DNA of 64,000 nt from Polytrichum commune (taxonomy: Eukaryota > Streptophyta > Polytrichopsida > Polytrichales > Polytrichaceae), in assembly GCA_950295325.1 (NCBI GenBank), contig OX485804.1, positions 51,820,429-51,884,428 of the forward strand, in the 5' to 3' direction. Position 1 is the first letter of the stretch; each line of letters starts with the position of its first letter. Of this stretch, positions 6,096 through 55,230 are shown piece by piece. A program made the translations under genes and the position numbers. Below the pieces are notes generated by a model that saw only the letters and a list, made by a program, of their open reading frames with translations, did not search any database and was not told where the DNA came from.

Positions 6096-6874
6096 AAGTT
6101 GGAGTATTTTCGGTTTTCGTTTATTTATTTTTTGGTATTTAGTGTGTATGAATTTAGTTGTAGTGAAAAGGTTGGGTAAGGCGGGTGTTATTTTTTCTAA
6201 TTGTTGTGTTGGAAAGTATGGGTTTGTGTTATTTTTAGGTATGTGATTTGTAATTGTGTTAGTTATCCGGTAGTTTGTGAATTGGTATTTGTTTATAATA
6301 TTGTGGCGAGGCCGGGAGGCCGAGGCCGTTTTAATGTTGGTAAGTGTGAGCAATCCGTTCTCCCCGGGTGTGTAAAGCCTTCGTTGGTGGTATTTTGTAT
6401 GTTTATTAATGTTTGTGATATTTGTTAGGTTATTACTTTTGACTTGTTTGGTAGGTGGTTTTGTTTTGGTTCTTATTTGTATGTTGGTTATTTGTATTTT
6501 TATTGGGGTACTATTGGGTATTAAGTTTATTTTGTTTACGTGTATTTGTATGGTATTTACCATCCCCTTGTAGTATTTGTGTTGTAGGTCATTGGTTTTT
6601 GTATTTGAGTATTTTTGGGTTATATTGTATTTTTTGTTTATTTTTTGTATTTTAAGTTCTTTGTGGTTGGTAGTTTTTGATAGGTAAGTCTTTTTCGGGT
6701 GTTTAGTTTCGAGTTTATTGTGGTTAGTTTTGTCTTGAATTTTTTGTTTTTTGGAGTTCAATTTTTCTATTGTGTTGGTGGTATTTATAAATACCTTATT
6801 AATTATTGTTATTTTAGTATTTAGATATACTATTGTGGTTTTGTAGTGTGTTGCCGGGTCGTTTTTTACCTTAC

Positions 6875-8479
6875 CTAGTTTCCCGTGTCCATATTTCCTT
6901 CATCCGGTCCACCTTCCGAGTCCTTTGCCACGCTCTCGATGTAGTTGATTGTTGTGAGTAGTTGCTGCTTGAATATTGTGAGTTGAGCTGCTATGGATTT
7001 CATTGATTTGTCGGTGTACGTGGTTGCTCTTCGGTACACAATCTCTTCTCTCTCTGCCAATTCCTTGCGTAATTTGGAAGTTTCTCCTTCCATCATTGTT
7101 TTCACCTCTTGTCTTGTTAAGCCTTTACTAGGTGCATTCTCCAAAGCTTCCACAGTGTTTGCGAGTGCTATGTTTACATCAGAGAATCATAATCTTGTTA
7201 ATTCCTCTTGAGAATGTGCGTTTATGCCATCCAGGCTCTTTGGGTGTGGGGTAAATTCTATGTATTTACCAAGGAGTTTGGCATTTTTCTTTACAAACTT
7301 TTTGTAAACGGCAGCATTAAGACATTGTACGTTACAGCTTCCCACATACTTCCCGTTCTCAATTTTGAAGAAGACATTTAACACATTTCTTTCACCCATG
7401 TATTTCTTTAATTCGTGTTCGATTATTTATGTGTTTTTTATTTTATTTAATTTTTTTACTATTAGGATAAGGGCATTCTTTCTTGCTTTGTCGTCTTCGG
7501 TTAATTTATCCCTTGAGGTGAATTTGGCTTCAAAGATTTCGTTGTCAAGTGAGATTTTGTAAGTATTTATTTTTTTCGCTTGTTCGGGTGAGGTTGCCAC
7601 CACCCAAGCAAAGCCCATTTCTTTCTTTTTCTGGATATTTGTGATTTCATAATCATATGTTCGATCAAATCCCTCATGTACTACTTCTTCTAAAATATTA
7701 TACCATTCTTTGCCTATTAGTGTATCGCTTGTAATTTTCACGGAGAGTAGGTTATTGAGAGCTAGTACGTCATAAGATTTATATATTTTCCTTCTCCATG
7801 GTTTTCCCTCTTCCAGTGTGATGATAAAAGCCTTTGTCCCTTGAAGAAAGCTTTTAGCATCAAGGAGTGGGTTTTTAAGGTGAAGTTTTATAATCCCACT
7901 CCACGTAGTAGATTTGTGAAAGCACATTATTGCTATAGGTTCTCCAATAAGCTCTCCGAGTTCTATGTTCATTTTGATTAGTCTTTCTTTTACCTTGTGC
8001 ATGATTATATCCCGTTCCCATTTTTGTTCACCAAGTTCAAAATGTATTAATACTTGGTAATCAAAAGAATACCCGTTCTCATCAATTTCCACATCGAATG
8101 GAATTTGAGTTAGGTTGTAGTGTTGTCCTTCTTTCCCATCTTCCCTCTTAGATGGCCATTCTCTTTGAGGGACAAATGGGAAAGAAGGCCTAGCATTCTG
8201 CATTTCTTTGGCTTCATCGAAATCAATTTTTCTTTTCATTAATTCCCTTGTACTTTTCCCACTTTCCATTGGTTTTTCTTTCTGTTTGTTTAAGAGATTC
8301 AAACCCTGAAAACCTAACCATAGAGAGGAGTATTTTGATCCTAAGTCTTTTTTGCTTTTAGCTTTCTTCTGAGTGGTGGTAACAAGAGTAGAAGTGGTTC
8401 TTTTTTTAGAAGTGTTAATTGTTTCATTTTCATCAACCACGCAAACATCCATGTTTCTTGTAGAGCTAGCTTTGGCCAT
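6875..8479 (-). pseudogene. LINE ORF1 protein, two in-frame stops
   Basis: One frame of 535 codons from the ATG at 8479 to the stop at 6875, interrupted by TAA at 7427-7429 and a stop at 7187-7189. The N-terminal third is Lys/Ser/Thr-rich with basic clusters (KKAKSKKD), fitting a nucleic-acid-binding tail. The middle has two alpha/beta-looking segments, with NVFFKIENGKYVGSCNVQ (about 7320-7380) resembling an RRM-like fold. The last about 90 residues are Lys/Glu-rich and probably form a coiled coil. LINE ORF1 products bind their RNA and multimerise. The strand asymmetry of ORF2 is absent here. I recognise it by position and features; the specific ORF1 family is not identified. Confidence 0.72.
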
Positions 8480-30418: not shown

Positions 30419-32622
30419 ATGGAGATGGAGATGTGTACTGGTGCTGGTCCCTTAAGCCGCCCAGATGAGGTACTCATCACAAGTGTGAGCATGGAGGAAC
30501 TCTTCTGGAGGTACCCGAGAAGAAGAGAGCTTGTGAAACTGATGGAAGAGTACACAGTGAAGACCTTAATCGAGCTTACAGAAAGGCAACTTATTGGTCT
30601 TTTAGACTACCTCCAAATCACCAAGGGCTTGGACCTCACCGATTACTCCTGCATCCTGCAGGCTGTATGGTCCGAGAAGACTTTGTTGCATCACGGTAAG
30701 CAGTTCCAAGTACTAAAACACTCATCTTGATCAGTTAAACATCATCACAAATGTGACCTGTTCCGAGTGAGTTTTCTAGGTTTGTACGTGAAACCTGTCT
30801 ACTTGTGTCCTTCGTAATTCTCTCTGAACCTCGAAAACTCAGGCCTGTAAGTTAGTTGGTCATCTGGAAGCTTAGAGAGTACAGACAGGAAGAATGTCAT
30901 GGTTTTCAATGCTGTAATCTAGAGTTTCGTGTCAGATGTTGTAACAACTGCATTTTAATTTTTTTATGGAGCTGAGTTTAAGCACGAAGATGATTAGTTG
31001 AATGTTGAGTGTCGCCAGGGTGAAGACATTGGTTCTTAAGGAATGTGTTGAACTGGAGTCCAGTAGAGTTGGTGATATGATTTCTTTACTTAGTTCCATC
31101 ATTCTCACTCAGAGCTCCCAGAATCTTCTTCAGATTTCGACGTTTCTCGGTGTCATGCAGTGTTGAAGTAGTATGGTGTCATTGTAGTAGCTCCACTTTC
31201 ATCATCATCATTTTTGCAAGTGGTCGTGGTTGCTTCTCGGTGTCTGGTCGGAACATCCGAATTGAACTGATCATGCAATTCGATTGTAAATTGTAGTTGT
31301 ACTTCCTGATTACTCATACTCTTGAAGATTTCCAAAAATACCAAACTCAAATGCACTCATTTCTCTCCATGACTTCGCCAAGACTCCAGGATCTCACATG
31401 TATTTCGTATGTATTTTTGTTTCCAGGATCATCTTCCAAGAACAAAAGGAAGAAGAAATGTCAGAGTGACTGTAATAATTCCCATGAGCTCACCAACTTA
31501 GCCATCGAGGGTCACATGGACCAGAGGCTATGGAGTCTGCTTCCGGAGCATCTCCTGGACCGCATCCTGGCTTGTCTGCCCTTACCCAGCCTGCTGTCCA
31601 TGCGACCAGTTTGCAAGAGATGGAGCACCTTGTTGTCCACACCGAGCTTTATGAATGTGTGCACTGAGGTTCCCCAAAAGCCACCTTCTTCCATGTTAGG
31701 CCTCTTCGAGAAAGGGGAGCAAGGGTGCATTACACAGGGCTGTTTCACATTCTGTTCAGTAACCCAGAAGTGGTACACCATAGAGTTAAGCCCGTTGCCT
31801 GTGAATGAGGGCAGCCAGTTAGCCTCCGCAGAGGGTCTGTTTTGTTACATCCCTTTAGTGGATGGAGAGGATGGAGATTGTTTGGTAGTGTGTAACCCTC
31901 TCACCAGGGCATGGAAATCCCTGTTGCTGCCAGAGGGCATTCAGATGTTATCCCTCCTGGCCATCACGGTGGATGTGGTGAGCCATAGTTACAAGGTGAT
32001 AGTGGTGGCTCTGATGCAAGTTAATATGGAAGCTGGGCCAAGGCTGGATGGGTATAACCTTATCACCCAGGTTTACGATTCTGCTTCCGAAACCTGGAAT
32101 GTCACACGGCGGTTGCCTCCGGGCCTTCAGTTCCCGTTGCACTCCATCTTATGCAATGGCAAGCTGTATGGATGGTGCAGTAAAGCCGACCAGATTTGGA
32201 TATATGACATCGATCTTGGGTTTTGGAGAGGCGAGCAGCTTCGCAATATCCCCGACGAAGCACGAACCTCGAACGTACATTTTGTGGAGTGTCAAGGCAG
32301 GGTTTTGTTCGTCACCGAGACTGGGTACACGGGTCTCCGCCCCCAGATTTGGGAGCTCAACCTCTACACCATGGTGTGCACAGAGGTCGCGCAAGTCCCA
32401 CCCGACCTGTTCCAGAAGTTTTTTGAACGTGTTTGTGAGTTTCAGTGCATCGGATACAATGATGCCATCTGTTTCATCGCACATGAGAGCCCCGAAGTGT
32501 TGACCTTCCACGTCGTGAAGAAACGGTGGCTTTGGCTGCCCAGGTGTCCTGAGTTTCCTGACTGGCACCCATATGGCTATGTTGGGGTTCCCTTAAAACT
32601 TAGATTAGATATCCCCGTTTAA
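30419..32622 (+). CDS. F-box/beta-propeller protein with LEAFY-SAM-like N-terminus
   Basis: Two exons, 30419-30695 and 31427-32622, joined by a GT-AG intron (donor GTAAGC, acceptor TTTCCAG) with matching phase, giving 490 residues. The first ATG in frame (30419) is used; no ATG is upstream before a stop. Residues 24-92 (SMEELFWRY to the KTLLHH segment, with YTVKTLIELT) resemble the SAM-like oligomerisation domain of LEAFY; this is my reading and unverified. A basic stretch KNKRKKK (about 97-103) could be a nuclear signal. The F-box is at about 128-168 (LLPEHLLDRILACLPLPSLL, RPVCKRW). The rest is a Trp/Tyr-rich repeat region like F-box/kelch proteins of the UFO/At5g15710 type. F-box proteins are substrate receptors of SCF ubiquitin ligases. 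No frame damage is seen. The F-box and intron are firm; the N-terminal call is tentative. Confidence 0.85.
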
Positions 32623-35745: not shown

Positions 35746-37482
35746 CGATTTTGCCAAATACTTACATGGCCATACATGTTTTGAGACCCCTTTGTTAAAA
35801 CCGGGGTGAGAAACATGGACCCTTTGCAACGTACTCATTAGGCCCTCCTGCCAAGTAGCCAGCTGTCCAGTCCAAAATACCAGGTGTCGCCACCTAATGT
35901 GATTATTAGGGTTTGCGGATTCGCCACCTTGCCACCCCCCAATTTCGTCGAGCATCCAAATTTCGCATCCAGCGCCTTGAACTGCCAAGGCACTCAAGTG
36001 CTTGCACTCTCAAATTGCCTCCCACACCATGACTCCGAGCATTGCATGGCTAGATCTAGTCTCTCCAACCTTTTTTAAGTTGCCATTACCATCATCACTT
36101 TGCCTTTGTTTTCTTGCCATGTTGGCAATACCATTGTGCATGCTACTTGTTTTTGGGTTAGGGCTTCGTTTTTGGTCAAGCCAGCACTCGCATTTGGTAT
36201 TAACACATATGTGTGTTTTGCACATGCTAGTGTGGGTGAGCATCATGAATGTGGGCATGGGATGAGTGTCGTGGGCAAGGATAAGGATCAGCTATGGATG
36301 AGCGCAATGGTAATCTTTGAGGTAGGTTCATGTATAAGATTCAACCTCCTTATGGTATTTACTATCACATACACTCTTTTGGAAGGGGCTTAAATCATAT
36401 GCATATAGGTTTCAAAGTGTCACGTCCACCAATTGCCAATATGATAGCATTTGTCATTTTTTTAAAATGATAAATATTTACATTATGACTTTTAGCCTAA
36501 CACATTGAGATGCTTGAGATGATGGTTTTACGTTTTAGTATGCATGGAAAATATATTATTGAGCATAAGTCTAACGGCAAATAATTGACACTATTACGCA
36601 TGTCCAATTGAATAACATAACCATTCACCGATGGTTTTTAATGACTTGGTATTTTCTAGTTGGCTGAAAGGTCGATGGTTATAATGTAGAACCATCAACC
36701 TCATCCACCCACCCACCTACCTACCTACCTACCCTAAATTACGGACAACAATTTGACCTACCTACCTTACTAGGTATTCATTCAAGATTCTTGCATGCTT
36801 AAAAAACACACGGACGAAGCTATTTTGCGAGCGGTGAGCGGTGAGCGGTAACTTCCGAGATATTTTGATTAAAATGTTATTTTAAGCAGTAAATTTATGG
36901 TATTGTTGGACTAAATTTATTTTTAGTAATTTTTTTCTAAACTTAGTGAACAGTGTAACCTATGACCGTGGACAATTAAGGGCTCTGATACAGGAAAAAA
37001 TGTTATTGTATCAGTGAAAAATATGGTTTAGGGTGTTAAATTGAACATTTGGAACTAATATCAGTAATAAATATGGGTTTGTCTCAAGTCAAACACGTAT
37101 TGTTTCAGTATAATGAGAATTAGTGGTACTCTAAAAAGGTCACGCAACTTTGGAACAACGAAATACATGTGGTGCGTCAAATGTCTTGTAGTGGCCCTTT
37201 TAGTCTCACTACATCATGATTATAACAAATCTTACATATATATGTTACTTTAAAGAAACAGAAAACTCTAAGAGTCAAGGTACTTCAGCAAACCACCTTC
37301 CAAAACTCGCTTCACTTCGTTGAAGCTAAAACTAGCTGCATGAATGAACGTGTCTGATTCTGAGTCCAAACCACAGACTACAGTAAACAAATAGTACAAA
37401 TGCTTACAGTTGGTCCATTGACCCCTTTTCCAATTGCTTTAGTCGCCATGTCCTTGAAGTTAGGACAAGTGCATGCTGGCAG
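35746..37482. other. Non-coding flank of the MULE-like unit
   Basis: Contains microsatellites (CACC/TACC)n at about 36709-36733 and three GCGGTGA-like 7-mers at about 36829-36849. The left end of the MULE-like element should lie here. I compared 36780-37480 with the reverse complement of 51600-52270 by eye and found no convincing terminal inverted repeat. Confidence 0.5.
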
Positions 37483-40400
37483 CTACGAAATCGTCAAGTA
37501 GTATTGCTGAACCTTTGGGGGCGTGCCGGAATCCAACGAGACGATGCATCCTAAGGCAGGGGCTGGAAGCATGCACAATTTGTGCACTTTGGCTTTCAGT
37601 GATAGGGCTGAGGCACAATTATTGGCGTGTTTTGTTGACGGGGCCTTCTTGTTGCCCCTAATCAACTTCCCTGAACGCCGGGTGGGAAACTCATCCGGAT
37701 ATGCAAGAGTCGTGTAGCTTGCTAAGTCCAAAGGTAACGGGTGGTCCTGAAAAATTCTGGAAGGTGTCATCTCCTTCCGCTAGGGCAATCTAAATCCTGC
37801 GTTTTCTAAAGAGAGGATCTCTTTGCAGGTTAAGTTGGTCCCCAACTTAACCGGCCATACCTCCGGAACGTTCGGGGCTGAGACCACCCACCTCCTTTTT
37901 GTACCCTTAACGCATCTCTCAATGTCGTCATTGCAAAAAAAAAAGTCTTGAGGGTCCAATCTCTTCTTCCGATAGTTATCCATGAGGCCTGAGTAGGTAG
38001 GTGCAGCGGTGCTCTTCCCGTCTTGTACAATCCGAGCGACGCACTTCTTCTTGGTGATTGCTTGTAGAGCAAAGCAAGCCTTCGCAGATGTCTTAGGCAG
38101 CCGTGCGATGTGCCACTGGGCAGGGTTGCATAATGTCTCCTCAATCGCGGTGACGTGGTGCCGATCCACCCACTGCGGAGCGTCGTGTGTTGGAAATTGC
38201 GGTTGGTTTTCATCTGCAGTTGTGGGAGAATATGGAGTTGTGGGAGAATCTGGAGTTGTCACAGGAGGTGGAGAATCGTTCAGTCGGGCATATCTGGCTT
38301 GGACGCGTGGTCGGGATATACTGATCTTGTCTGGCCTTTGAGATTCACGTTCGTCACCGAAAGCAGTATCCGGTTTACGCTTCAGAGAAACAAATACCTC
38401 TTCCCCTTCGAGGTGGGGAGTCCTGGTGCACCACTCGTCACCACCAGGCATCTTCAAGATGGCCTCATGCAGCGGTTTCGAGATTCCTGTTTTTACGGCA
38501 GACCTCTGAGCACGCCTCAGCTTCAATTCCTCCTTCGACGGTCCAGTTCCAGGGTTCTCTCCCTTTAGGAATTGGGAATATGCTGAGCACTGCATGAAAG
38601 CACGCACGAAGTCATCGATTGTTGCCACATAAAGGTCGCTGCCCCGATCGCCAGATTGTTGCTTCCACTTGTTGTGGATAGATTCAGCAAGGTTACAGGA
38701 TGGCATTTCCGCTAGTTCAACTTCACTTAGATCCTGCAATGCCCATACAGTCCGAATTAGAATAATGGCGGAATCAATGTAGTTGAAGCATAAAGTGGGA
38801 ACTATACAAGAAATATAGAGGGAAACATAGACTTACCAACTCCATAAATCCACCCCATTGGCGGTAACGGAAATGCCAGAAGGCCAGCCAGAGCTCCAGT
38901 CGAGGTAGACCTTGTTCAGTTGCTGCCCCGGATGACATCCACCATGCCCGAATTGCCAAATACTTTGTCTCGGCCTCCGCCATCGATTTTGCATTCTTGT
39001 ATTGCTGGCATAGTATTCGATGCTGATGTTGCAGGTCTTGACGGATATCGGCCTTGGTATGTTTCTCCAAGGACTGCGTCCAATGGAAAAGACAAGTCCT
39101 CTCTCTATCCACCATCTTCTCTGACACATCTCCACTTCCGTAAATGATTCGAACAGCATTCCAGTTGGCTTGGGCACTGTCGGCCATGAAACCTTTAAAA
39201 TTGACTTTGTCCACTCCATGTTGAGCCATGAGAGCGTTCAGGTTCTTCCATACGACTGACTGGGCTGCAACATCTTCAGACTGCATGTCGCATACTGCGA
39301 TGGTCATGACACGGCAATATGTGGAATCGTACACATGGCAAGCCATTGTCGTCCACGACCTGACACGTTTGACATGGTCAAACATTATCCAGGAGTTCTC
39401 CAAGTCACCACCGGGTTGCATTCGTTTGACAAGGTCGACTCCGCTACCCGGTCCAACTTCAGACATCTTGAAGACAAAGACCTTATCCATGTCCGCTCCT
39501 TGCCCTGGAAACCTATTCTGTTGCACGAACCTCCAATTGCTAGCACCGCGTAACTTGGTAATACTGTCCATGACTCCAAAGCGACGCATAGTCCTGAACG
39601 TGGTGACTGCGTTACGAATGTTGGGCGAGGTGAGGTGCTTACACCGATCGAAAATAACTTGCAGCTCGTCCAACTCTAAGATCTTTTGTGGGTCACCTTC
39701 TTTAGCAAGGAGGAGTGGGCCCAGTACTTCCTTTGCAGTTTCAAACACAATAGCGGAGCGAGTGGCTGATGGGGTGCGTTCGACTTGATCCCCAATCAAG
39801 GTGTTTGTCAAATCGATGAAGTCCCGATGATCACCTGACTTGACGGGATGGTCGTGAGATCCCAAGTGCACACAAGCCCTCGTCATGTGAGGTGTCGCGG
39901 TAACATAGTAGATCTTGGCAGTGCAGACAACAACACAGGTGGGAGGGACATTACATGATTTGCAAACAACGGTCGAACCAGTTGGAGGCTTGGAACCCAC
40001 TTCAAACAATTTCTCAGATAATCCTTCCCACTCTGTTTCATTCACTTTGGAAATCCTATGGTCTCGCTGAAGATACTCACAGGCAGGATTGTCGCAACGG
40101 AGGTGGCCCAAACAAGAAGATGCACGAAACAAAAGCTTCAGATCATTTTGAATATTGGATGTAATTGTGCGAGTCCAAGCATGGCCATCATACCTTCTAT
40201 CCATTCCACGAAGCAGCTTGGCCTTTGTATTATGGCCATGGTCACCTAAAGGTAGAAACTCAAAGATAACGTCCCCATCGTAATGAGGAGGAAGGTAATC
40301 AACCTGCTGGAGTCTGATCGCATCAAAGTTAATTCGAGATAACACACTTTTGGACCGCTTACGAGCTCCAAGGCGCATCAATGAATGAATGATACTGACA

Positions 40401-40927
40401 AGAGGACTTGCCACAACCTTGGCCTGACCAGGATTAGGAGACGGACTAACAGGAGGAGTTGTTTCCTTGCGAACTACTTGTGGAGACAACGAAGCTTGGA
40501 CTCTGCTCGCTGATTTTAAGAATTCAACATCGCCGTCGGAATCATCACTCAACTCATAAATTGTATTTAGACCGGGCTCAATTTTGACCTTAGACAGCAC
40601 CGGTCTCTCAATGCTAATAGTGGAAGACTCCTTGGGTGTTAGAAGTTCAGTGGAACACTCAAACATAGACTCGGAGACTCCATATACACGATATTTTCCA
40701 GGCTTCAACAACCAGAACGTACCGACGTCATTATCTACTCTAGTCTGACGAACTGCATGTGAAACTAGACCGGTATGATCGTCAAAAACTTCTTCTTCGA
40801 CAAAGATAGTGACCTCACGATATTGAAACCTCAAACTCAATGTTGCACAAGTGACTATAGCATGACCGTCTTCACCTAATGGAAAGAGGACCGGAACAGA
40901 ATGAGGTTCAGCATGAAGCAGGGCCAT
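37483..40927 (-). pseudogene. MULE-like transposase, one in-frame stop
   Basis: Two exons on the minus strand: 40927-38837 and 38733 to about 37483, with a 103-bp GT-AG intron (38734-38836, donor GTAAGT, acceptor TTGCAG) and phase 0 on both sides. The N-terminal part is acidic and Ser/Pro-rich. Next comes a Cys/His cluster (RCDNPACEY, VVCKSCN, then ACVHLGSHDHP) like the WRKY/GCM-type zinc fingers of MULE proteins. The catalytic core follows: SWIMFDHVKR (Asp codon 39377-39379), GFMADSAQANWNAV (Asp 39179-39181), CLFHW, and after the intron MPSCNLAESIHNKWK with the presumed catalytic Glu. A TAG at 37780-37782 interrupts an otherwise open frame that continues to 37483 with plausible coding sequence. 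The start at 40927 is the first ATG downstream of a possible acceptor; an upstream exon is possible. Confidence 0.82.
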
Positions 40928-41386
40928 AGTATACCACAGAACTCTGAACAAAACAAGTACTGTGAACATTGAAATGGCATGAATATATAAGAGGGAACAA
41001 ATTACTGTGCAAACTGGTAATTTATGTACCAGCAAGCAGAATTTCAGAAGATAATAGAGAGACATGGAGAGTAAGCTGAAAGACGGCTGAAAAACCATTT
41101 TTGGATGCAAGTCCCAGATAGGTAAGAAACCGATATCTATTTCAAACATAATATTCCAATATAAATAGAGCAAAAGAGGTGGGCGTATCATATACACTCA
41201 CAAGGTGTTATGTTTACCTGTTTTCAAATAGTAGAAACCAAGAACAGACATACATTCTAAACATTGTTGGTTATAATATATATTGGCAAATAAGGCCATA
41301 AGAATGATGGCCGCCACGAATAATGTGGAGAGCATGATAGTAGCTCTGCAATAATAAATCCCAAACAATAGAATGCTACATTGTGA

Positions 41387-41815
41387 TTAACGACAAAGAC
41401 GCTTATGGGGCCCTTTGCCATTTTTGTCACCGTCATGTTTATGACAATGGTCAATCCCTAAACTATGAACTGCAGTGCATCCTGCGCAACCGAGTTTCTG
41501 TCGTTTGGGAAGTGGGAAACTCCTTAATACAGATCTAGAGTACGTGCCCGGTTTAATAACCCCTGCTCTAGAATATGCATGAGTCTGTAAAGTAGACAAG
41601 TCCTCTATCAGCGTTGCAACATCCGCTTGCAAGGATGGAGTCCGTGCATGTGGACTCTGAACCACGACCGCCGGAGTAACTGAGGAGTCAGGTGGGTTGT
41701 CAATCTTCATGTTGTTGACAACTGCGAAACCATCGATGGACAACGTGGTGTGAACTTGAGATGTACTAGGAGAACCTAAAGGAGTAGGGCTTGGGAGACT
41801 TGAGTCAGTACCCAT
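41387..41815 (-). CDS. Small protein with C-terminal Cys/His cluster
   Basis: 142 codons from the ATG at 41815 to TAA at 41387-41389. A longer frame starts at 41878, but a TATA-like box (41868-41875, minus strand) falls inside that extension, which favours 41815. The N-terminal part is Ser/Thr/Pro-rich. The end holds GCAGCTAVHSLGIDHCHKH followed by a basic tail, a probable zinc-binding cluster. No family is recognised. It lies between the divergent promoter and the transposase, so it may be an accessory protein of the element or a 5' exon of the transposase transcript; I found no clean splice donor to settle that. Confidence 0.5.
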   Translation of the reverse strand: MGTDSSLPSPTPLGSPSTSQVHTTLSIDGFAVVNNMKIDNPPDSSVTPAVVVQSPHARTPSLQADVATLIEDLSTLQTHAYSRAGVIKPGTYSRSVLRSFPLPKRQKLGCAGCTAVHSLGIDHCHKHDGDKNGKGPHKRLCR

Positions 41816-42255
41816 TGGAGAAGAATATGATGAGATGACATGAAGGAATGGGTACAAGCAATCGGGTATTATATACACCTAGGGTAGACAGCAATGCGCG
41901 AATATTTGATAACATGTTAGATCAATTAATAGTCAATGTTTATTTATGTAAATGTTGGACACCCTGTTTCATGTAGGAAAAGAATGTACTACAATAATAG
42001 TCAATACTTTATCAACCACCAAATATGTGACATGGCAGGATTCTATTATGTAGAATAGGTTTTAGCGCCGCCAATTGTAGTGTATTAATGCTGTGTGAAT
42101 TAACAAAGGAATAAATCAAGGAAATGCAGATTAATTATCTAAATCCAATGTGAACACAATTATCCAAAATGTGAACATAATGATGGAGAATAGATGTTAA
42201 TTATGACAGAGTTGACAATGATATATAAGATCTGTTTGCTTCAATATTATTAGAG
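41816..42255. promoter_or_regulatory. Divergent intergenic promoter region
   Basis: Between the two opposing start codons. TATATAAG at 42222-42229 lies 27 bp before the plus-strand ATG (42256), so the leader would be very short or a different box is used. TATATAAT on the minus strand (plus coordinates 41868-41875) lies about 53 bp before the minus-strand ATG (41815). The sequence between is AT-rich and without open frames. Predicted from motif and position only. Confidence 0.45.
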
Positions 42256-43011
42256 ATGAACACTAGGTCGAGAGCGAGAGCAGATCGAGAGATTAGGAGG
42301 ACTATTGAAAAACAAAGGCGTATTGAGAGAAGGCAAAGGTTAGAATCAAGAGGGAGCTTAGGAACGCCGTACAACTTGCGGACAACAATGGGTAGACGAG
42401 GGGTTAATTCTTCTAGGGGCACAGGTAGAGGTTCCAAAGGGGAAAAAACGTTTGATGTTTCAGAGGTAGCTCCAGTAGTATTATTTCCTGTATCGGAGGA
42501 AGACAACGAAGTTGACAAAGGGGGCAGTGAGGTGATGTTTATCTGCAATCATAATGAAATTTTTATATGTGCAATCATAATGTTAAGTTCTATCACGGAT
42601 AGTTGGAACAGATGAGACTCTCTAAATTCCCTTGTTGTGTGGGCAATGGTATCGGCTCCTTTATGTTGTGTTTTATGTTTGGTGGGGGATTGTGAATTGG
42701 GTTTGGTTTGGGTATCTGGAACAGGGAATGACGCAGACACAGGTTCAACCTGAGGCAACCTCCAGTGCCTCAACATCAGATCAAAGTGAGGAGCAGGTTT
42801 ATAAAGATTGTAATCAATTGGTGACTTGAATGGTTTTGGGTTTAGGGTAAGGGGTCTTTCAAATGCTAACACTGTATAAGGCCAAATTCATAGCTAATGA
42901 GCACCGGACATATACACTTAACAGATCCTTGGCGAATTCGATCAAGGCGCTGATAAAGGTGATCTTCGCGAAGCAAGAATGGACAATGAAGAACAGCAAT
43001 TCGGGGAAGAG

Positions 43012-45234
43012 GTACGTTGTCCCACACAAAAACACCTTGAATTTTATTTTTTTGCATAGTGTTCGGAGATCCAAGATTGTGAACTGAAATAAGGTAGACA
43101 CCTATACCTGCCGAGGGAGACATTTCTGGTGAGGGGGAGGGTTGACGGTTGAGGGTGAAGGTGAGGGTTTTGTGTCGTTCTTGGAGTTCTTGAAATCTGA
43201 TGTGAGGTCTAGATATGGACGTATTAAGGTCAAACTGATGTGAGGTTAGATATGTGGGTTACAAGTGTTAGGTTTTCTAAGGTTAGTTAGCTATGTTGGA
43301 TATTAGGGTAATCTGATGTAAGCGTAGAAATTTTGAAATTCCAGGCCCGAGTTTCAGTGTCTCGGTGCCGAGACACAATTTCTGGTTTTCAAACTGTAAA
43401 CCCTACAATCATATTTGATATGGAAATCTAGATTTACTTTGTATAAGGGTACTCTGATATGATACTACACATGTGTGTTTGAAGTGAAATCTGATGTGAG
43501 GTCTAGATATGCTAGTATTAAGGTCAAACTGATGTGAGGTTAGATATGTGGGTTACAAGTGCAATCTGATGTGAGGTCTAGATATGCTAGTATTAAGGTC
43601 AAACTGATGTGAGGTTAGATATGTGGGTTACAAGTGCAATCTGATGTGAGGTCTAGATATGCTAGTATTAAGGTCAAACTGATCTGAGGTTAGATATGTG
43701 GGTTACAAGTGCAATCTGATATGAGGTTAGTTTGGACTTGTGGGTATACGAGTAATGTGATTTAATTTTTGAAATTTTTGAAATTCCAGGGCCAAGTTTG
43801 AGTGTCTCGGTGCCGAGACACAATTTATGGTATTCAAACTGTAAACCCTACAATGATATTTGATATGGAAATCTAGATTTATTTGGTATAAGGGTACTCT
43901 GATTTGACACCAAACATGTGTGTTTGAAGTGCAATCTAATGTGAGGTCTAGATATGCTAGTATTAAGGTCAAACTCATGTGAGGTTAGATATGTGGGTTA
44001 CAAGTGCAATATGATATGAGGTAAGTTTGGACTTGTGGGTATAAGGGTGATTTGATGTAAGCTTAGAAAATTTTGAAATTCCAGGGCCTAGTTTGAGTGT
44101 CTCGGTCCCGAGACACATTTTCTGGTATTCAAACTGTAAACCCTACAATGATATTTGATATGGAAATCTAGATTTATTTGGTATAAGGGTACTCTGATTT
44201 GACACCAAACATGTGTGTTTGAAGTGCAATCTAATGTTAGGTCTAGATATGCTAGTATTAAGGTCAAACTGATGTGAGGTTAGATATGTGGGTTAAAAGT
44301 GCAATATGATATGAGGTTAGTTTGGACTTGTGGGTATACGAGTAATGTGATTTAATTTTTGAAATTTTTGAAATTCCAGGGCCGAGTTTGAGTGTCTCGG
44401 TGCCGAGACACAATTTATGGTATTCAAACTGTAAACCCTACAATGATATTTGATATGGAAATCTAGATTTATTTGGTATAAGGGTACTTTGATTTGACAC
44501 CAAACATGTGTGTTTGAAGTGCAATCTAATGTGAGGTCTAGATATGCTAGTATTAAGGTCAAACTGATGTGAGGTTAGATATGTGGGTTAAAAGTGCAAT
44601 CTGATATGAGGTTCGTTTGGACTTGTGGGTATACGAGTAATGTGATTTAATTTTTGAAATTTCTAAAATTCCAGGGCCGAATTTGAGTGTCTCGGTCCCG
44701 AGACACATTTTCTGGTTTTCAAACTCTACTACCTACAATCATAGTAGATATTGATATCTAGATATGCTTGTTATAAGTGTACTCTGATATGATGTTAGAA
44801 ATGTTTGTTAGAAGTGTAATTTGATCTAAGGTTTGATATCTGTAAGGATAGGTAGGTTTGAAATTGAATTTTAGAGTTGATTTCTAGTTTCTCGGTCCCG
44901 AGAGACTATTTGAGACTATTAAACTCTTCCACCTCACTATGACTTTAGGGGCTATAAGTGTAATCTGATATAAGTGTAACCTGATATGAGTGTAATCTTA
45001 TATAAGTGTAACCTGATATAAGTGTAATTTGATATATTGTAAATTTGCAATGTGAGCTAAGAGGGTGATCCGATGGAAGGATCACTATTTCATGAGTTGA
45101 ATATTTGTGCCTAGTACTAGTGTCTCGGTCCTGAGACATGTCTTTTGATGGTCAAACAATACCACATACACTTATAACTGATGGCAGCTGAGGTCATGTT
45201 CTCTCCTTGATTAACTAGTACATATATTTTGCAG
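43012..45234 (+). repeat. Intron 3: tandem repeat array
   Basis: The intron is almost entirely repetitive. 43488-43712 holds three 75-bp units (starts 43488, 43563, 43638, with a partial fourth at 43713), each made of two diverged 37/38-bp monomers around 'tgatgtgaggttagatatg'. A higher-order unit of 295 bp recurs exactly spaced: its palindrome is at 43802, 44097, 44392 and 44687. Short open frames inside (43727-43978, 44317-44562, minus) are products of the repeat and not genes. Confidence 0.92.
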
Positions 45235-48200
45235 GTAGAGAACAACGCAATGGAGGATGTTTCTGCTCTTTCTCTGTTTTCTCTAGACTATTCTGAAGAG
45301 GGTCAGGATGAGGATGAAGAGGGGCTTGGAGATAGAGATCCATATGAAGGGGATGAAGATGATATCAGGACCCGATAGAAACTTAATTCTGTTGCCACGA
45401 TTTCTCGACTGAGAGTCCAACCCCTGAGTTCCTCAAGGTTCCCTATTCCCTTGTGCAGAATGTTGGCCATGCCTATGGTGAGGCCAACTCTCCCAAGTGA
45501 TCTTGCTAAATTGGAGCAGGAGTTTGTGCATGGGTATAGAGAGGGTGCCTCGGTATTTTATGTGACAATAACAAATGAATAAGGGAAAATACATGAGGTT
45601 ACTGAGGCTGATAAGGCATCGTGGGGTCCTATTTGGAGTGCCAAAAATGAACAATTCAACTCCTTTCTTCTGTCCGTTCCAGAGTTAGCCGGTTTTACGA
45701 ATTTGATGTTCTTTGTTTGTGACGGGAACCATAGGCGGCAGGCTTGGTTGAACCATATTGAACGACTTCACAAAACAGAAGAGTCCTGGCATTTTTTGGT
45801 GGATAGCATCCTCCTTGACACCAAGGGAAAAATTGGTATTGTTATGCAAGTTATGCATAATATCAACAAGTAAGTTTTCTAAATCCATTTTTTGAGGTTT
45901 TCATCTATGTACATATATTATGTTGTTCTTGTCTTTAATATATGATTGTTACTTGTAGACATACGGAAGACTCTCACGTGAAGACAAACACAGTTCACAC
46001 TCTATGTAGGGTGCAGAAGTATGGACTTATGCCGCTCGAACAGTACCAAGACATTTTTGACTCCCTCTGACATTAAAAGGTGCAAGAAATCTCAAACTTC
46101 AAAGAAGACATGGTATTCATTAAATCTACATGTATTCATGAGCTTCATCTTCCAGGTATGATGTGATGTTGATGCTTGATGATGTGATTACTCTTATATC
46201 TAATCCCTTTCAACATTTGGTACTTATAATTGATGTTTGAATGTTTTTGTTTTTTTATGTGCTTTCATAACATCTTTTTGTCGCAGTTGTTTGATTACAA
46301 ACTAACTATGGTAATCCCTTTCCAGCACGAACTGGCACTTGCTGCAGATGAAGGCGTTCGTCAACTTCTTGAGCAAACGGATGGAGAGGTGTCTGCTGCT
46401 GAAAAAGCAGCCGCCATGAAGGTCGCTGCTTCAAAGAGAGCCGAGGCACTTCATAAGAAAATGTCAAAACTAGTTTGTGTGGCAAACCCAGACTTGACAG
46501 ATGGATGGCTTCGGGAGGTATGTCCACTACTTTAAAACCCATTCTACATTTTTCAAGTAATTCATTAATCTCCATGATCTTAATATATTGCTCTATAGGT
46601 CACAGATTGCGCGTCACTATACTCTTAATTCAATTGCACCCGAGCTCAACTTAGAGAAATTGCAGTTGATCGCTACTGCAAAAGCATCACCCGCTTGTAA
46701 AATCAAATGGTTGGAATATTTCAATTCCTCTTCATCAACACGTGAGGCTCGCAAACTGCCAACCAAGCCCACCAATGAGGACAAATTGCAGGCATTCCTA
46801 GCCAAGGCATGTTTTTGGGAAGGAGTGAGTACATAATCCCCTATGTACCCTTTAGTTCGGTGTTACTTGATTTGATCCCTTACATTAATTGGTCTTTCTC
46901 TTGGTTTCACGGTTATTTCAATATATGAATCGATGTTGCTCAAATTCTTGTTCATATTCACTCTCTGTATATACAGATATCCGATCAGGCTTCCATTATA
47001 TTTGAAGACACTTTGCGCCAAGACAGACTTGCTATCAACTTTGCACTACCCAGCGAGCCCTTGACCTTGGTTGCATACATCGAGGACTGTAGAATGAAAT
47101 TATGGGACAACGCGTTTCCCACATTCTTCCGAGGGCAGGAGGCCTTTAACAAAACTCACGAATTTGAGGGATTTAACGGGACAGACTTGATTGTCCGAAG
47201 AGTTATCTTTCGGTGAGTTCTCTCCTTTCATACTACAGTTCTATAGTGTGTTATAAGTGTACTCTCATATGATGTTAGTATGCACTTTGAGGTATTAGGG
47301 TAATCTGATATGAGGTTAGAAATTTGTGTTATATGTGAAATCTGGTGTGTGCTCTACATTTGGTTGTATTAAGGGTTATATGTGAAATCTGATATGAGGT
47401 TATATATGGTTGATATAAGTTTAATCTCATATAAGGTTAGTTAGCAATGTTTGATATCTACAGGTACTTCTTATAAGTGTACTCTGATATGAGGCTAGAT
47501 ATGTGTGTTATAAGTGCATTCTGATGTGATTTCTAGATATGCTTGTATTAAGGTCAATCCGATATGAGGTTAGATTTGTGTGTTATAAGTTTAATATGAT
47601 GTGAGGGTAATCTGATATAAGCTTAGTTAGTGATATCTGATATAAGCTTAGTTAGTGACATTAGTTAGGGCCTAGTTTCATATAAGCCTAGAAATCTCTG
47701 AAATTCCAGGGCCTGGTTTGAGTGTCTCGGTCCCGAGACACATTTTCTGGTCTTCAAACTCTAAACCCTACAATGATATTTGATATTGAAATCTAGATTT
47801 ACTTGGTATAAGGGTACTCTGATATGAGGGTAGAGATGTGTGTTTGCTGTGAAATATGATGTGATGTCTAGATATTCAAGTAGTAAGGTCAAACTGATGT
47901 GAGGTTAGATATGTGGGTTACAAGTGCAATCTGATATGATGTTAGTTTGCAATTGTGGGTATAAGGGTAATCTGATTTAAGCTTAGACATTTCTGATTTT
48001 CCAGGGCCGAGTTTGAGTCTCTTGGTCCCGAGACACATTTTCTGGTATTCAAACTCTACTACCTATAATCATAGTAGATATGTGTGTTATAAGTGCATTC
48101 TGATGTGATTTCTAGATATGTTTGTATTAAGGTCAATCCGATATGAGGTTAGATTTGTGTGTTATAAGTGTAATATGATGTGAGGGTAATCTGATATAAG

Positions 48201-50403
48201 CTTAGTTAGTGTTATATGATATAAGCTTAGTTAGTGACATCTGATATAAGCTTAGTTAGGGTAGTCTGGTTTAAGCTTGGTTAGTGCAATCTGAGATTAG
48301 CTTAGGTAATGAAATTTGATACAATCTTAGTTAGGGGAGTCTGATATAACCTTAGTTAGGGTAACCTGATATAAGCTTAGTTAGGGCCTAGTTTCATATA
48401 AGCCTAGAAATCTCTGAAATTCCAGGGCCTAGTTTGAGTGTCTCGGTCCCGAGACACATTTTCTGGTATTCAAACTCTACTACCTACAAACATGGTTGCT
48501 ATTGATATCTACCTATACTTGGTATAAGTGTACTCTGATATGAGGCTAGATATGTGTGTTATAAGTGCATTCTGATGTGATTTCTAGATATGCTTGTATT
48601 AAGGTCAATCCGATATGAGGTTAGATTTGTGTGTTATAAGTGGAATATGATGCGAGGGTAATCTGATATAAGCTTAGTTAGTGTTATATGATATAAGCTT
48701 AGTTAGTGACATCTGATTTGGCATAGTGTTTTGGTTTTTAATATGGCAGCTATGTCAATTGCAAGGTATTTAATGATGAGCTGTGTCTTTCCCGCAGGTA
48801 TTTCAAGTACGAGCTCCTTGCAAAAGGAACAATAACAAAAGAAGATCTCCCTATATTCCTCTCAGCATGGCTTGACAGGTCTAACTCCACGTGCATGTTC
48901 TCAGCAAATCAACAGCGTACATGGTCAACCTCACATCTCACTGGAGGTGGTTGGTACCTTGACTGTGCTCCTAGTTTCACTCCTTCCTTTGAAACTGAAC
49001 TTAGGAAGTCAAGGGATGCAGTTGGAGAATCTGGTGTTGAGATGATTGACTTACAGGGCATAGAAGACGAGCATGAGAGGGCAAAGGCCCTATCCCGACG
49101 TCTAGAAGAGGATAGGAAGAAGGCGCTTAGAGTAAAGGAAGCAGAGGAGAAAGCCGCACAGAAAGAGATGGAAAAACTTCAAAAATCATTGGAGAAGACT
49201 ACCATGAAGGGGAAAAAGAAGATGAACCCCCATTCTGAGCTAGAAGGTAAGAGTCCCGTTGCTCCAAGTCCAATCTATGAATCTGGTTCTCATGCTCCAA
49301 CATTTTCTAGAGGAACAAAACGCGATTCCTCCTATGAGCAGTTGAGTCAAATTCTTATTTTGACATCGGGGGAGGAGCTCGATATCCATATTCAAGAACT
49401 CATTCTCAACGCCTCAATGGAGGACGTTCTTGGCGGTGACACGGAAGAATTCACCCCTTCCTACAACGAGTTGAAAAGATTCATGCTCAAGGTACTGCTC
49501 TTCCTTAATTTTGTCATAACATGTTTGCATTTAAATTTATGCATTTCAATGTGGTCCACATTGAACATTCAGTAGGTACTACTTTTCATATTTCAGTAAT
49601 CGGCCATAATTTTTTTCGGGACCGAATCATGGATCTGACGAGTAAGGCTGGTAGGGTATAGTTTATGCAGGACCCAAACACCATGTGGAGTGCGAGTTGA
49701 GCCCTCAATGGACTCGGCAATTTGTTTTGTGCTTGCAATCGGCCATTTGTTTTGTTCTCCCATTTTGTTTGTGGAAATTAGGAGTTGAAATATGAATGGT
49801 GAGGTGTCATGTTAATTTTTGAACTTTTTTAGTCGGAACACTGTTTAAGTGAAATCCCCGCCCTCTTTGAATTCTACCTTCTCTGAAATATGATGTGAGG
49901 TCTAGATATGCAAGTATTAAGGTCAAACTGATGTGAGGTTAGATATGTGGGTTACAAGTGCAATCTTATATGAGGTTAGTTTGCAATTTTGGGTATTGGG
50001 GTAATATGAGGCAAGTTTAGAAATTTCTGATTTTCCAGGGCCGAGTTTGAGTGTCTCGGTCCCGAGACACATTTTATGGTATTCAAACTGTAAACCCTAC
50101 AATGATATTTGATATTCAAATCTAGATTTACTTGGTATAAGGGTACTCTGATATGAGACTACACATGTGTGTTTGAAGTGAAATTTGATGTGAGGTCTAG
50201 ATATGCTAGTATTAAGGTCAAACTGATGTGAGGTTAGATATGTGGGTTACAAGTGCAATCTGATGTGAGGTCTAGATATGCTAGTATTAAGGTCAAACTG
50301 ATGTGAGGTTAGTTTGCAATTGTGGGTATAAGGGTAATCTGATTTAAGCTTAGACATTTCTGATTTTCCAGGGCCGAGTTTGAGTGTCTCGGTCCCGAGA
50401 CAC
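43357..50403. repeat. Twelve copies of a 20-bp near-palindrome in the introns of locus 1
   Basis: GTGTCTCGGTCCCGAGACAC (9-bp arms, 2-base centre). TC-centre copies start at 44097, 44687, 47722, 48438, 50051, 50384. TG-centre copies start at 43357, 43802, 44392. Degenerate copies are near 44887, 45120 and 48017. All lie in introns 3, 8 and 9. Arms stay intact while surrounding monomers diverge. They could form hairpins in DNA or pre-mRNA, or be protein-binding sites. A link to the ParB-like domain of the same gene is a hypothesis. Confidence 0.9.
47213..48797 (+). repeat. Intron 8: tandem repeat array
   Basis: Built from the same monomers as intron 3, including palindromes at 47722, 48017 (degenerate) and 48438. 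48180-48400 is a run of about 30-bp units 'ctgatataagcttagttagggt'. A block around 47500-47700 recurs at 48080-48410 and again at 48560-48710. Confidence 0.88.
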
Positions 50404-50939
50404 ATTTTCTGGTATTCAAACTCTACTACCTACAATCATAGTAGATATTGATATCTAGATATGCTTGTTATAAGTGTACTCTGATATGATGTTAGAAATG
50501 TTTGTTAGAAGTGTAATCTGATCTAAGGTTAGATATATGTGTTGTAAGGTCTATCTGAACTGGGGTTGAATATGGGTGATATTACTGTAATCTGATGGGA
50601 GATTAGATATATGGGCTACATCTGTTATCTGATATCGGGTTAGATATGTGTGTGATATGAGGTTAGATATGTGTGTTATAAGTACAATCTGATGTGAGGT
50701 TATATTCGCACGTTATAAGGTCAATCTGATATGAGGTTGAATATGGGTGTCATAAAGGTACTTTGATCTGTGGTTAGATATGTGGGTAACAAGTGTAACC
50801 TGATAAGAGGTTAGATTTGTGTATTATATAAGGTTAGTAATGAGTATAGATATGTTTGATATAAGGGCTAGTACTAGGCAATGTACAAAGCAAGGAGGAT
50901 TATTTTAACACCAAACCTGGTTGTCCTTTGATTGTGCAG
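49492..50939 (+). repeat. Intron 9: repeat array
   Basis: 49600-49870 is unique sequence; 49880-50860 contains the same gaggtctagatatg monomers and palindromes at 50051 and 50384. The unit 49890-50070 is nearly identical to parts of introns 3 and 8, so the arrays spread between introns of this gene. Confidence 0.88.
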
Positions 50940-51830
50940 CACTCAAAAGACAAAACCCGGCACTACAAGGGTTCTCCGGATGACCATCCCTGTTTGGACT
51001 TGATTCTTGCACATATACCGGAAGGTCTTCCTGTTCCTGGCATATCAAACCCACCGTCGTCCATTCCCGCTTGGAATCAAGAATCGAAAGAGTGGTTACA
51101 ACCACTCTTTGACTTTGCCGACGAACATCTGCACGACGATGGGGCAATTATTTTGTTTCACCCTTTTCGCATAAGTACGAAGTCCAATATTCTTGGATAT
51201 TGCAAATCGTATGGTTTTGCAATTCGGAAAGAGTGGTGGGGAATGAACCGCCTTCATCTTACATCTCCAATAAATCCAGCATCAACTGTAAGATAAAGTT
51301 TAAGTCTTCTTTCTGATCACCGCATTCAGTTTCAATTTCATCCTTGAGGTAGTTCTGAGTGTAGACCCACCTGACTATTATACTCACGCAGTTCTGTTGT
51401 TCACTTTGTAAAGTAATATTGATCTTTATGTCTGGTACATTATAGACCATGAGGTTCGGTATTTCATTGGCGATCAGGAGCGTGCCGGGGTCACCTGCAT
51501 CGAAGTTTTCATTTCGCCATGTCCCTGAATTGGATTCTTATGGGGTGGATGTTGCACGGGATGATATTCTCCAGAACTTGGTCTCTCGTGAGGACTAGCT
51601 AACTAATGGATCCACACCATGGCGAGGGCCTCGTGAAAAGTACGCACCATTTATGTCACCAAAAAGCCTCCACCCTTCAATTTCGTCATAGCCCGAATGG
51701 AGAAGTTTATAATGACATGTAGAGATTTCTCTCTTTGTAACACAATGTATGATTCCAATCTATCGTTGGAATATACGCAACTTAGCCAAGTCTATACTAT
51801 GTCTTCTTACACTCGTTAATCTCGAAGTTT

Positions 51831-52269
51831 GGAAGTTTGGACATAGTCTCGGTTTTTTGGCTCTCAAAAATTCATATGAAGTCCAAAAAATGAGTTCTTG
51901 GTATCCATGGATAGGTAATGAAGTCCTCTACATGAATATGCAATAATATTTCTACTGCCACAAAGTATATGGTCGCAATTCTACGCTGTTCCCTTTGAAC
52001 CTACACTTTTTCACTAGTTTTTGGAAGTTTGGACATAGTCTCGGTTTTTTGGCTCTCAAAATTTCATATGAAGTCCAAAAAATGAGTTCTTGGTATCCAT
52101 GGATAGGTAATGAAGTCCTTCACATGAATATGCAATAATATTTCTACTGCCACAAAGTATATGGTCGCAATTCTACGCTGTTCCCTTTGAACCTACATTT
52201 TTTCACTAGTTTTTGGAAGTTTGGACATAGTCTCGGTTTTTTGGCTCTCAAAAATTCATATGAAGTCCA
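51831..52269 (+). repeat. 192-bp tandem repeat, about 2.3 copies
   Basis: Units start with GGAAGTTTGGACATAGTCTC at 51831, 52023 and 52215 (last partial). Copies differ at only a few bases, so the duplication is recent. It begins about 140 bp after the last frame of locus 1, near where the right end of the element is expected. Confidence 0.95.
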
Positions 52270-55230
52270 ACAAAACTAAATGCTCCAATAAGAGACTTTG
52301 CACATCCGCATAAGTATAAGGCTAATCAATGTAAATCCAAGTATTCAAACAAAGCCATAAATTGAACTTTAAATCATTCACGCCCAACTATTACTAACAA
52401 GAGGTCAAGCCCTCTTCAAGGCCAACTAACTTTGGCTCCTAACCTTACATCCATGCACACACACGTGCTCCTATCTTGCTTCCCACGCACCCACACTTAT
52501 AACACGTGGAGTGCCAATGAGCACGAAGGAAAGAGAGGATGAGTGAAAGAAGAATGAGGGATTATATAGTGAGTTTGAGGGGGTGAGCACCTTCAAGGCT
52601 CACGATAAGCCCTCGAGATTTCCTCCTACTTTGTAGGCTCTTATCCTATCTCCTAAGCCTTCCTCCCTCAAATGATCAACAAGGATCCTAATTCGAACAT
52701 TTAACTAACCTTGGTTTTCTACCTACCACACTTTACCAAGGTTTGTCCTTCTCCTACTTAAATCCACTCCACAAAAGCCTAATGATCCAAACTAAGTTTT
52801 CTTCAAGCTTAACTCTTTTTATATTTTTGTGAATAATCATATATCACCAAAACACCACTTGTAACGTTTTACAAATGTTAACAACCAATGTGGGCATCAA
52901 TTTTAGGCTCACAAGTGTTGTCTTAATTGTTCACCTTAGGATCAAGGAATGAAAAGGACAACAAGAATTAGTCGAAACGATCCCAAATTTTTTCCTCACA
53001 ATCATCGTTCAAGTGTGTACCAATGGAACCAAAAATGTATTCAATACGAATTGCCCAACTTTACATGTGGCACCAAACATGGCCAAAAATACATATATAC
53101 ACGGCCACACGTAAAAGGAACGTCGAGTATAAGAATTGGACAAAAAAAATTATATGAATGGACACATGACAATTATGCCAAGGTACCAAAATGCAAAACA
53201 TGAAATAATTGACCACCAATGCACACCTAAATAACAAAAAATGCCATTGATGTCGCCAAATTGTCAATTTTTATTTTGGACTCATGCTACTCTGGAAATC
53301 CCGTCACCTTCCTGCTGACGCTTATCCGAGAAGATCCCGACCGTTGGTTCTCCTTGATTTTTTGGTAATTAATAAAAATACCCTAAACGTACCCAAATAT
53401 TGCGAAGTCCTTAAGTCTTTTGTCCCAAAAGTAGTACCTCAATCGTGAATGGACCCAATTGCCTAATTACACATTAATTCCATCTCAATGTAAACACTAT
53501 CAAACACAAATTATGGCCTACTTGGTTATCTCAAGGATTACCAATAATGTCCACAAACAATTCCACTCCTTGGAACTAGGGTGCTCAATTACAATCAAAT
53601 CCCTGCAATCTCTCCAGGAATCACTCCGGCAATAAAGTTATAATTTCTACACTAAACAACACAAGCTCTTTGCTTAGTTAATGCCAATTATGCCAGACTA
53701 TAGTCCTTGAATGCAATCGGTAATCTCGTCCTCCAATCAATATTTACTTCTCCTTCAGACAATTGCTTCTATTCTCAAATTATTACACATTCTTACTCAT
53801 TACGCATTCATAAATTGGTCATAAAAGGAATCATATCCACAAGAAGAATCACTCAACAACCTTCCTTCTTAATTCCACAATTCAGCAAATCATCCACACG
53901 CATGCGAACACATTAATATATACAGACTTAAGATACAATCCCTTCCACTCACCACTGTTACTCAAAGTTCCATCAGATTATGGCCCGTAATTCAATCATT
54001 CAACCACGACAGATTTAGCATTCAGTAAAATTCAAAAATATTATATTTAGATATTGGCCAACAACTAAAATCCTTCTGCACAGACGATGGCCTAATCAAT
54101 TACATACCACAATCTAGTTACACACCCTGAATTGGGAAATACAGTCCAACAAACAATCAGATTATAACCTGATAACATCCGAGGAATCATTCCTCGGGAA
54201 TTTGTAACTCTCTCTTACATATTTTCAACAATATATATCAAAATTGCCTCTATCCTCTCTTAGCCACACTCTCTCCTTCTATCCAAAGTTGTACTTAATA
54301 ATGGCCCTCCTCTCTACTAGACAATGGCATGTATCTGCCTCTAGAACCTCCTAGAATCAGGCCCATAGCCTTTTGCAGTTGCTTTTTGAAATCTCAATCC
54401 ATAGCCCCTTTCATACATATTCATTTACAATTTTGAAGTTAAACAAGGGCACTATTTACACTGAAACCTTGTTCTGGCTAAGAAAGTTAAAAAATTGACA
54501 CCACATATGGCAAATATGAAATTTACATAGACATAGGTGGTTGGGGATTGGCAACAATATCTTTGGATAAACGAAACTCAAATCATTTTTGGCACTCTAC
54601 ATCTTTGAAAAATCTAGGCTCCAAGAATTTTTGTGGATAAATATTAAGTTGTTCTTCACCAACGACTACAATGTGCGTCATTTTCATACCAAGAAGGGAT
54701 AATCATATTCTTTGTTGAAGATTGCAGAGGCTATCTGGGGTTTCATATCTCAATCCAATAATCTCAAAATCATTTACTGTCATTCTTAAAAAAAAATGGC
54801 TTCATTGTATTTGTTGAATGTTATCCACTTTAAGCACAAAACCTCGTATGACCCCTGTTAATATTGTCAATTGATTGTCTCGTGAGCCAAATTTTCAAAA
54901 AAAATCCTTCAACAAACACATTCGTCAACGTTGTCTAACTATACCAGAACGGAAAAAAAAGTTCATTGTTGTGACATAAGTTGTGACGAGAAGATCATTT
55001 TCAAACGTCGAAAATAAATTTAAAATTTTTATATCAATAAATTTTTATATTTATAAAATTCATTAGTTATTTATTATATTATTTATTATATGCATTTTGA
55101 ATTGTAATTGTTGTTTGTTAAAAAATATCCTAAAAGATACCAAAAAGACAACTCCTCGACTGTCTTACCATTTGTTTCACCAAAAATATAAAATATCAAT
55201 GATCAATGCGTACAATCAACAATAAATAGA
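52270..55230. other. AT-rich DNA, nothing recognised
   Basis: No open frame with a domain. 52960-53210 is open for 84 codons without motif. Could hold unseen promoter sequence or degraded 5' parts of locus 2, but nothing supports a feature. Confidence 0.5.

Follow-up and report, generated by a model that had tools for sequence, protein, structure and literature searches.

A 64,000-nt stretch of the Polytrichum commune genome (contig OX485804.1; hereafter the window) contains, at positions 36812-51641, what we interpret as an autonomous Mutator-like element (MULE) in a decayed copy that is truncated on the right. Transposase exons lie on its minus strand and, head to head with them, a multi-exon accessory gene lies on its plus strand. 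The accessory gene encodes a ParB-like segment joined to a domain of methylase descent, and its introns carry arrays of a palindrome. Our leading interpretation, held tentatively and as a whole, is that the accessory protein of this decayed element binds the palindromes and regulates or de-silences the element that encodes it.

The palindrome, GTGTCTCGGNNCCGAGACAC, is repeated in introns 3, 8 and 9 of the accessory gene and is absent from the initial annotation of this DNA. The element in the window has 12 sites matching GTGTCTCGGTNCCGAGACAC with at most three mismatches, nine of them with perfect arms, and no such site was found in the window outside these three introns:

43357..45139, plus strand: intron 3 array of seven palindromes of the form GTGTCTCGG-NN-CCGAGACAC, lying partly in 295-bp units; the arms of five are perfect
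47722..48457, plus strand: three palindromes in intron 8, two with perfect arms
50051..50403, plus strand: two palindromes in intron 9

Eleven copies of the core, TCGGNNCCGA, are present in the element and none in the remaining 49,168 bases of the window; shuffled elements contain a mean of 0.028 cores and a maximum of 1. Three diverged genomic copies, D036, D037 and D038, have 17, 11 and 4 cores, respectively, in ~8 kb each. The arms differ in D036 and D037 (GTTTCGG..CCGAAAC, GGCCTCGG..CCGAGGCC) and the core is kept. Candidate forms of the palindrome for putative binding are GTGTCTCGGTCCCGAGACAC and GTTTCGGCCCCGAAAC.

Three types of array, represented by the window, by locus L043 and by loci L044-L046, have flanks that are 25-29% alike, which is the level expected by chance. 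Their palindromes are 91-95% alike, a likeness that is partly due to choice, since L043-L046 were selected for exact matches and their units were picked by the core. The weight of this comparison is that exact palindromes occur at all in flanks that are unrelated. Pairing immediately outside the core is seen at the first to fourth steps in 34, 32, 25 and 24 of 36 distinct sites, which come from all sources and are related, not independent, within a family; further out, 13-19 sites pair. Genome-wide, the exact pattern has 657 forward and 580 reverse matches (TA-centred sites are counted twice) and its control has 0, and GTTTCGGNNCCGAAAC is found at 405 sites, with 3 for its control. Among the first 100 matches listed, all on contig C1, seven of eight clusters lie within 30 kb of a left terminal inverted repeat (TIR) of the element, on the correct side, where 0.05 would be expected. 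The same contig has large clusters of GTTTCGGNNCCGAAAC near 32.676-32.685, 37.21-37.27 and 53.28-53.31 Mb with no listed left TIR nearby; these are perhaps further element families with other ends.

Both genes are, as judged from the ends of related copies, within one mobile element. We used exon 9 of the accessory gene as a probe for copies in the 408-Mb, 64-contig genome. The search returned 40 scored places out of 117 candidates, all with E ≤ 4.1e-205, and the presence of the gene at these places therefore exceeds chance. Seventeen are full-length at 99-100% identity (window included), one is partial at 99%, and 22 are at 83-89%. Ten copies were fetched from the 16 other full-length 99% places. 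The window copy diverges from all ten after 51641, and the right end of the element, seen in six of them, lies ~2.4 kb further. The left end is defined by one feature:

36812..36851, plus strand: left TIR, GGACGAAGCTATTTTGCGAGCGGTGAGCGGTGAGCGGTAA, with an identical start in five copies and the window; its reverse complement stands at the right end of six copies

The TIR pair thus reads GGACGAAGCTATTTTGCGAGCGG... at the left and ...CCGCTCGCAAAATAGCTTTTCCC at the right, and the first 23 bases of the left TIR have 105 genome matches with at most two mismatches (reversed control, 0). In all four copies with both ends, which are 17.0 to 19.7 kb between ends, both genes lie inside the TIRs. Target duplications of 10 bp flank three of the four: they are perfect in K011 and K019 (TCCTTGAAAT, AAACTTATGA) and match at 9/10 positions in K027, and none was found in K015. 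The TIRs and duplications, which the initial annotation had proposed to define from several copies, surround both genes and bear out its idea of a single element; its starting point, 37483, is superseded by the left end at 36812. Element size varies because the 295-bp intronic repeat expands. Transposase sequence was seen in six of the ten fetched copies; K009, K013 and K023 were fetched without the transposase region, and in K025 the 9 kb upstream of exon 4 has no match to the window in stretches longer than 800 bp. Around individual copies, we observed that the nearest listed left TIR in the same orientation as K013 (contig C7) is ~52 kb from exon 9, the interval holding, as far as fetched, a long expansion of the 295-bp array, that a 192-bp tandem repeat at 51828-52275 of the window begins just past the truncation point, and that K019 has a copia-like flank, recognised by eye.

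The transposase comprises the following features:

37268..38733, minus strand: last exon, with a C-x-C...C-x-H end that we take to be SWIM-like; two in-frame stops in the window copy, open over 521 aa in K011, K015 and K019
38837..40927, minus strand: main exon, with a ubiquitin-like N-terminus, a WRKY/GCM-type zinc region and an RNase H-like DDE domain, from 47 homologues and predicted structure
41387..41815, minus strand: possible first exon or separate small open reading frame (ORF) beginning MGTDSS, open in five copies; its link to the main exon is putative

By its predicted structure the transposase is Mutator-like, in keeping with the initial annotation. The model of the main exon (mean predicted local distance difference test score, pLDDT, 74.3) matches ISCth4, GCM and WRKY18 in the PDB, and it pairs an RNase H-like DDE transposase domain of IS256/Mutator type with a WRKY/GCM-type DNA-binding zinc domain. 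The element also has terminal inverted repeats, and its target-site duplication falls within the 8-11 bp range of MULEs. The transposase gave no match to a Pfam MULE profile and its last exon no Pfam match; among the 41 of 47 main-exon homologues in alignment A1, the Transposase_mut profile matched two weakly (best E 0.034).

The accessory gene has 13 exons with consistent phases in other copies, and its model in the window uses GT-AG sites:

42256..42531, plus strand: exon 1, from the spliced gene model
42725..42796, plus strand: exon 2, from the spliced gene model
42925..43011, plus strand: exon 3, from the spliced gene model
45235..45869, plus strand: exon 4, ParB-like segment with DGNHR, from homologues and a weak profile match
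45959..46155, plus strand: exon 5, 1-bp insertion in the window copy, border corrected against an earlier model
46326..46517, plus strand: exon 6, from the spliced gene model
46606..46824, plus strand: exon 7, border corrected against an earlier model
46977..47212, plus strand: exon 8, from the spliced gene model
48798..49491, plus strand: exon 9, from the model and 40 scored genome places at 83-100% identity
50940..51287, plus strand: exon 10, encoding the first half (motif IV region) of the methylase-like domain, from the model and phage alignments
51446..51641, plus strand: exon 11, cut by the truncation and continuing into motif I in other copies, from copy comparison

The initial annotation had correctly described this arrangement, with the transposase exons on the minus strand and a gene of many exons on the plus strand, including the distance between the putative starts (440 bp between 41815 and 42256); its count of 11 exons gives way to 13. 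In the window copy, truncation after 51641 has removed exons 12-13 together with the end of exon 11. Its reading frame is also broken, by a pair of stops in exon 4, a further stop in exon 11 and the 1-bp shift in exon 5. Three of the ten copies (K013, K017 and K023) have no in-frame stop over the portions seen; a single splice site is changed in each of K013 and K017, and none is in K023 across the ten exons fetched.

The methylase-like domain is only half contained in the window, and profiles recognise it only after exons from other copies are added. With this composite as query, PF01555 is matched with E 1.5e-5 (25.5 bits, just below the cut-off of 26.7) and phrog_3008 with E 3e-7. A tblastn search of phage records gave 449 matches at E ≤ 10, with a best E of 2e-5; query coverage is 80% or more in 34 of them. 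Each of the 15 phage matches listed carries the annotation DNA methylase or methyltransferase, and phage methylases align over ~90% of the composite. On these alignments the domain is of methylase descent and related to beta-class N4/N6 phage methylases. The fusion of a DGNHR ParB-like segment to a methylase-like domain that the initial annotation had described is supported; of the profile searches it had proposed, those for the methylase gave matches, and those for ParB a weak one.

With DPPY not conserved and motif I altered, working methylase activity is doubtful. When the composite was aligned by BLAST with four phage methylases, the DPPY position read NPPS in three alignments and DIPE in the fourth; a MAFFT alignment places NPPS or NPPT opposite DPPY, with NPPT in D038. 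The catalytic pattern (D/N/S)PP(Y/F/W) is therefore absent, its aromatic residue missing in either alignment, and the FxGxG S-adenosylmethionine (SAM) motif, motif I, is replaced by TAATG or TAAMG. Both changes are present in both of two diverged families, and amino-methyltransferase activity has probably been lost. A rival view, along the lines of the DNA-modification protein suggested in the initial annotation, takes the protein for an active methyltransferase (N4-cytosine or N6-adenine) marking its own element, as has also been proposed for a gene of Ectocarpus. The motif order and sequence match to beta-class phage methylases, the retention, downstream of motif I, of the A-(C/S)-x-x-x-x-R and E-x-D parts, and purifying selection are all consistent with such activity, but the altered catalytic and SAM motifs make a DNA-modifying enzyme unlikely.

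An explanation that we consider similarly unlikely is that the protein binds the palindromes in order to assemble or control a transposition complex, or to set copy number, and not to counter silencing. The same linkage and recurrence of sites speak for it, and accessory MULE genes such as mudrB exist; however, the sites in the window are intronic and not near the element ends. Less likely again, the palindromes could be sites for a host factor, such as auxin response factors, that the element exploits. The arms of the main family, TGTCTC...GAGACA, do contain the auxin response element TGTCTC, but D036 and D037 keep the core TCGGNNCCGA and not TGTC, which points to the core. It is improbable that the palindromes matter as hairpins or are minisatellite by-products, with the gene acting elsewhere. 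They do lie within expanding tandem arrays, and pairing outside the core is incomplete, with all four flanking steps paired in 17 of the 36 distinct sites. Nonetheless, the same 20 bp recurs in arrays of unrelated units, and the first two steps pair in almost all sites though their letters differ between families.

The accessory gene is, on codon comparisons, under purifying selection, with a ratio of nonsynonymous to synonymous substitution rates (dN/dS) of about 0.1 in exons 4-9. For exons 4-8 jointly, dN/dS is 0.08-0.10 relative to D036 and D037, with synonymous sites near saturation; it is 0.08 for exon 9 relative to the same copies and 0.18 for exons 10-13 relative to D038. Stop codons were excluded, and the usual end codon of exon 13 was not counted as a stop in D036 and D037. 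These two copies (L036, L037) are mosaics, 94-99% identical to the main family in exons 10-13 and about 70-76% in exons 4-8, which suggests recombination between element families. MULEs tend to pick up host gene fragments (PMC6446971), but the position of the gene inside the TIRs of every both-ended copy and its low dN/dS between families make a passenger or neighbour caught by chance very unlikely indeed; the presence of the gene in all ten fetched copies is no evidence here, since they were found through exon 9.

Several observations weigh against our interpretation. The palindromes are physically linked to the gene, and their co-occurrence is not proof of binding. One of the eight clusters checked has no nearby left end, a listed exon 9 match accompanies just two of the eight, and for many GTTTCGG clusters no left end is listed in the vicinity. 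Conversely, the exon 9 place C1:77082, one of three listed before 44.33 Mb on C1, has no listed exact palindrome cluster. The ParB assignment of exon 4 is weak. Exon 4 has 299 relatives among 386 candidates (120 listed), and in alignment A2, 52 of the 120 listed relatives, the DGxxR signature is present, with D, G, N and H invariant and R nearly so; the ParB fold is putative. The profile match of the segment is weak (phrog_1033, E 0.023), 14 of the 52 family members match a ParB profile at E ≤ 1 (best 0.082), and no Pfam ParB profile matched the segment. The structure model of exon 4 is poor (pLDDT 62.8), and no ParB is among its listed PDB matches. Selection is also less marked in some comparisons: dN/dS is 0.38 for exon 9 relative to D038, 0.34-0.36 for exons 10-13 relative to D036 and D037, which are little diverged there, and 0.51 in 50 codons of the poorly matched exon 8 of D038. 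Finally, the diverged copies carry stops up to the end region (one in D036, five in D037 and six in D038).

We propose that the accessory protein regulates its own element by sequence-specific DNA binding. It would recognise the palindromes that recur in the introns of the accessory gene, coat the element, and antagonise host silencing or tune transposase expression, as VANC does in Arabidopsis VANDAL elements. On the distribution of the sites, the protein may bind the palindromes, though we would not call this probable. With more reserve, we suggest a complete ParB/parS-like self-recognition system in a eukaryotic transposon, in which a ParB-like protein fused to a non-catalytic methylase fold would bind intronic palindrome arrays; specificity and arms would change together between families while the core TCGGNNCCGA stays, and coating would serve to escape or control silencing. 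An anti-silencing role as such, argued by analogy, is possible but rather doubtful. Regulation or counter-silencing of the element, now with candidate binding sites, is our best inference. C>T and G>A changes make up 83 of the 112 private substitutions in the window and nine copies (K011 was omitted, its match being too short); the remainder are 8 transitions in the opposite direction and 21 transversions. The C>T class affects 16 of 95 CG sites, 18 of 113 CHG sites and 49 of 600 CHH sites, and is hence commoner at CG and CHG. This bias would fit long-term cytosine methylation of the elements.

Elsewhere in the window, an F-box gene with a KIB1-4 beta-propeller lies at 31297-32622 on the plus strand; F-box proteins with this propeller are plant-specific, and this is a plant-type host gene. 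At 407-6899 on the minus strand, ORFs resembling those of a long interspersed nuclear element (LINE), with Exo_endo_phos_2, RVT_1 and a 2A-like GGDIESNPGP, are followed by an ORF matching PF12237 (PCIF1_WW, E 1.1e-8). This LINE may carry a PCIF1-like domain.

How does the element compare with known systems? ParB-parS systems and phage ParB-methylase fusions combine a DGxxR signature with clustered palindromic sites. The element described here shares both the signature and the clustered palindromes, and differs in that profile and fold support for ParB membership is weak.

The initial annotation knew of no described plant transposon with a ParB-methylase gene. Genes of this kind have in fact been reported from transposons of brown, red and green algae (PMC12477816); the MULE in a plant genome is new. 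Sola1-1_Ec32 of Ectocarpus is a large DNA transposon whose ParB-like and N4/N6 methylase protein (1104 aa) is encoded on the opposite strand to the transposase, and its authors suggest that the protein binds and modifies its own transposon, in a passage that names no target site (PMC12477816). As in the algal transposons, both domains are in one protein opposite the transposase within one transposon, although the ParB part is weak here. Sola1-1_Ec32 belongs to the Sola1 superfamily and to a brown alga, whereas the present element, set against that description, is a plant MULE with 10-bp duplications and palindrome arrays, and its accessory gene has 13 exons and altered catalytic motifs. The kind is thus already known; the additions here are its presence in a plant MULE, the substituted catalytic residues and the arrays of palindromes.

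Fungal DNA transposons also encode a protein of a DNA-modification family, the TET/JBP dioxygenases, thought to derive from phage-bacteria conflict (PMC12730594). TET/JBP enzymes oxidise methylcytosine and do not have a methylase fold, whereas the protein described here is methylase-like. VANDAL elements belong to the MULE class (PMC12730594), and in Arabidopsis their accessory protein VANC counters silencing of its own element in a sequence-specific manner (PMC10398659, PMC5735166). The likeness is that of a MULE with an accessory gene; the role proposed here is drawn by analogy. VANC is not called ParB- or methylase-like in the pertinent parts of those two papers. Candidate targets are present in the element itself, recurring in arrays that are otherwise unrelated and differing from family to family. 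This opens the proposed class of transposon proteins that mark their own element or oppose its silencing to direct testing. If our interpretation is true, the sequence-specific counter-silencing known from VANC would extend to a protein of the bacterial partition and phage type.

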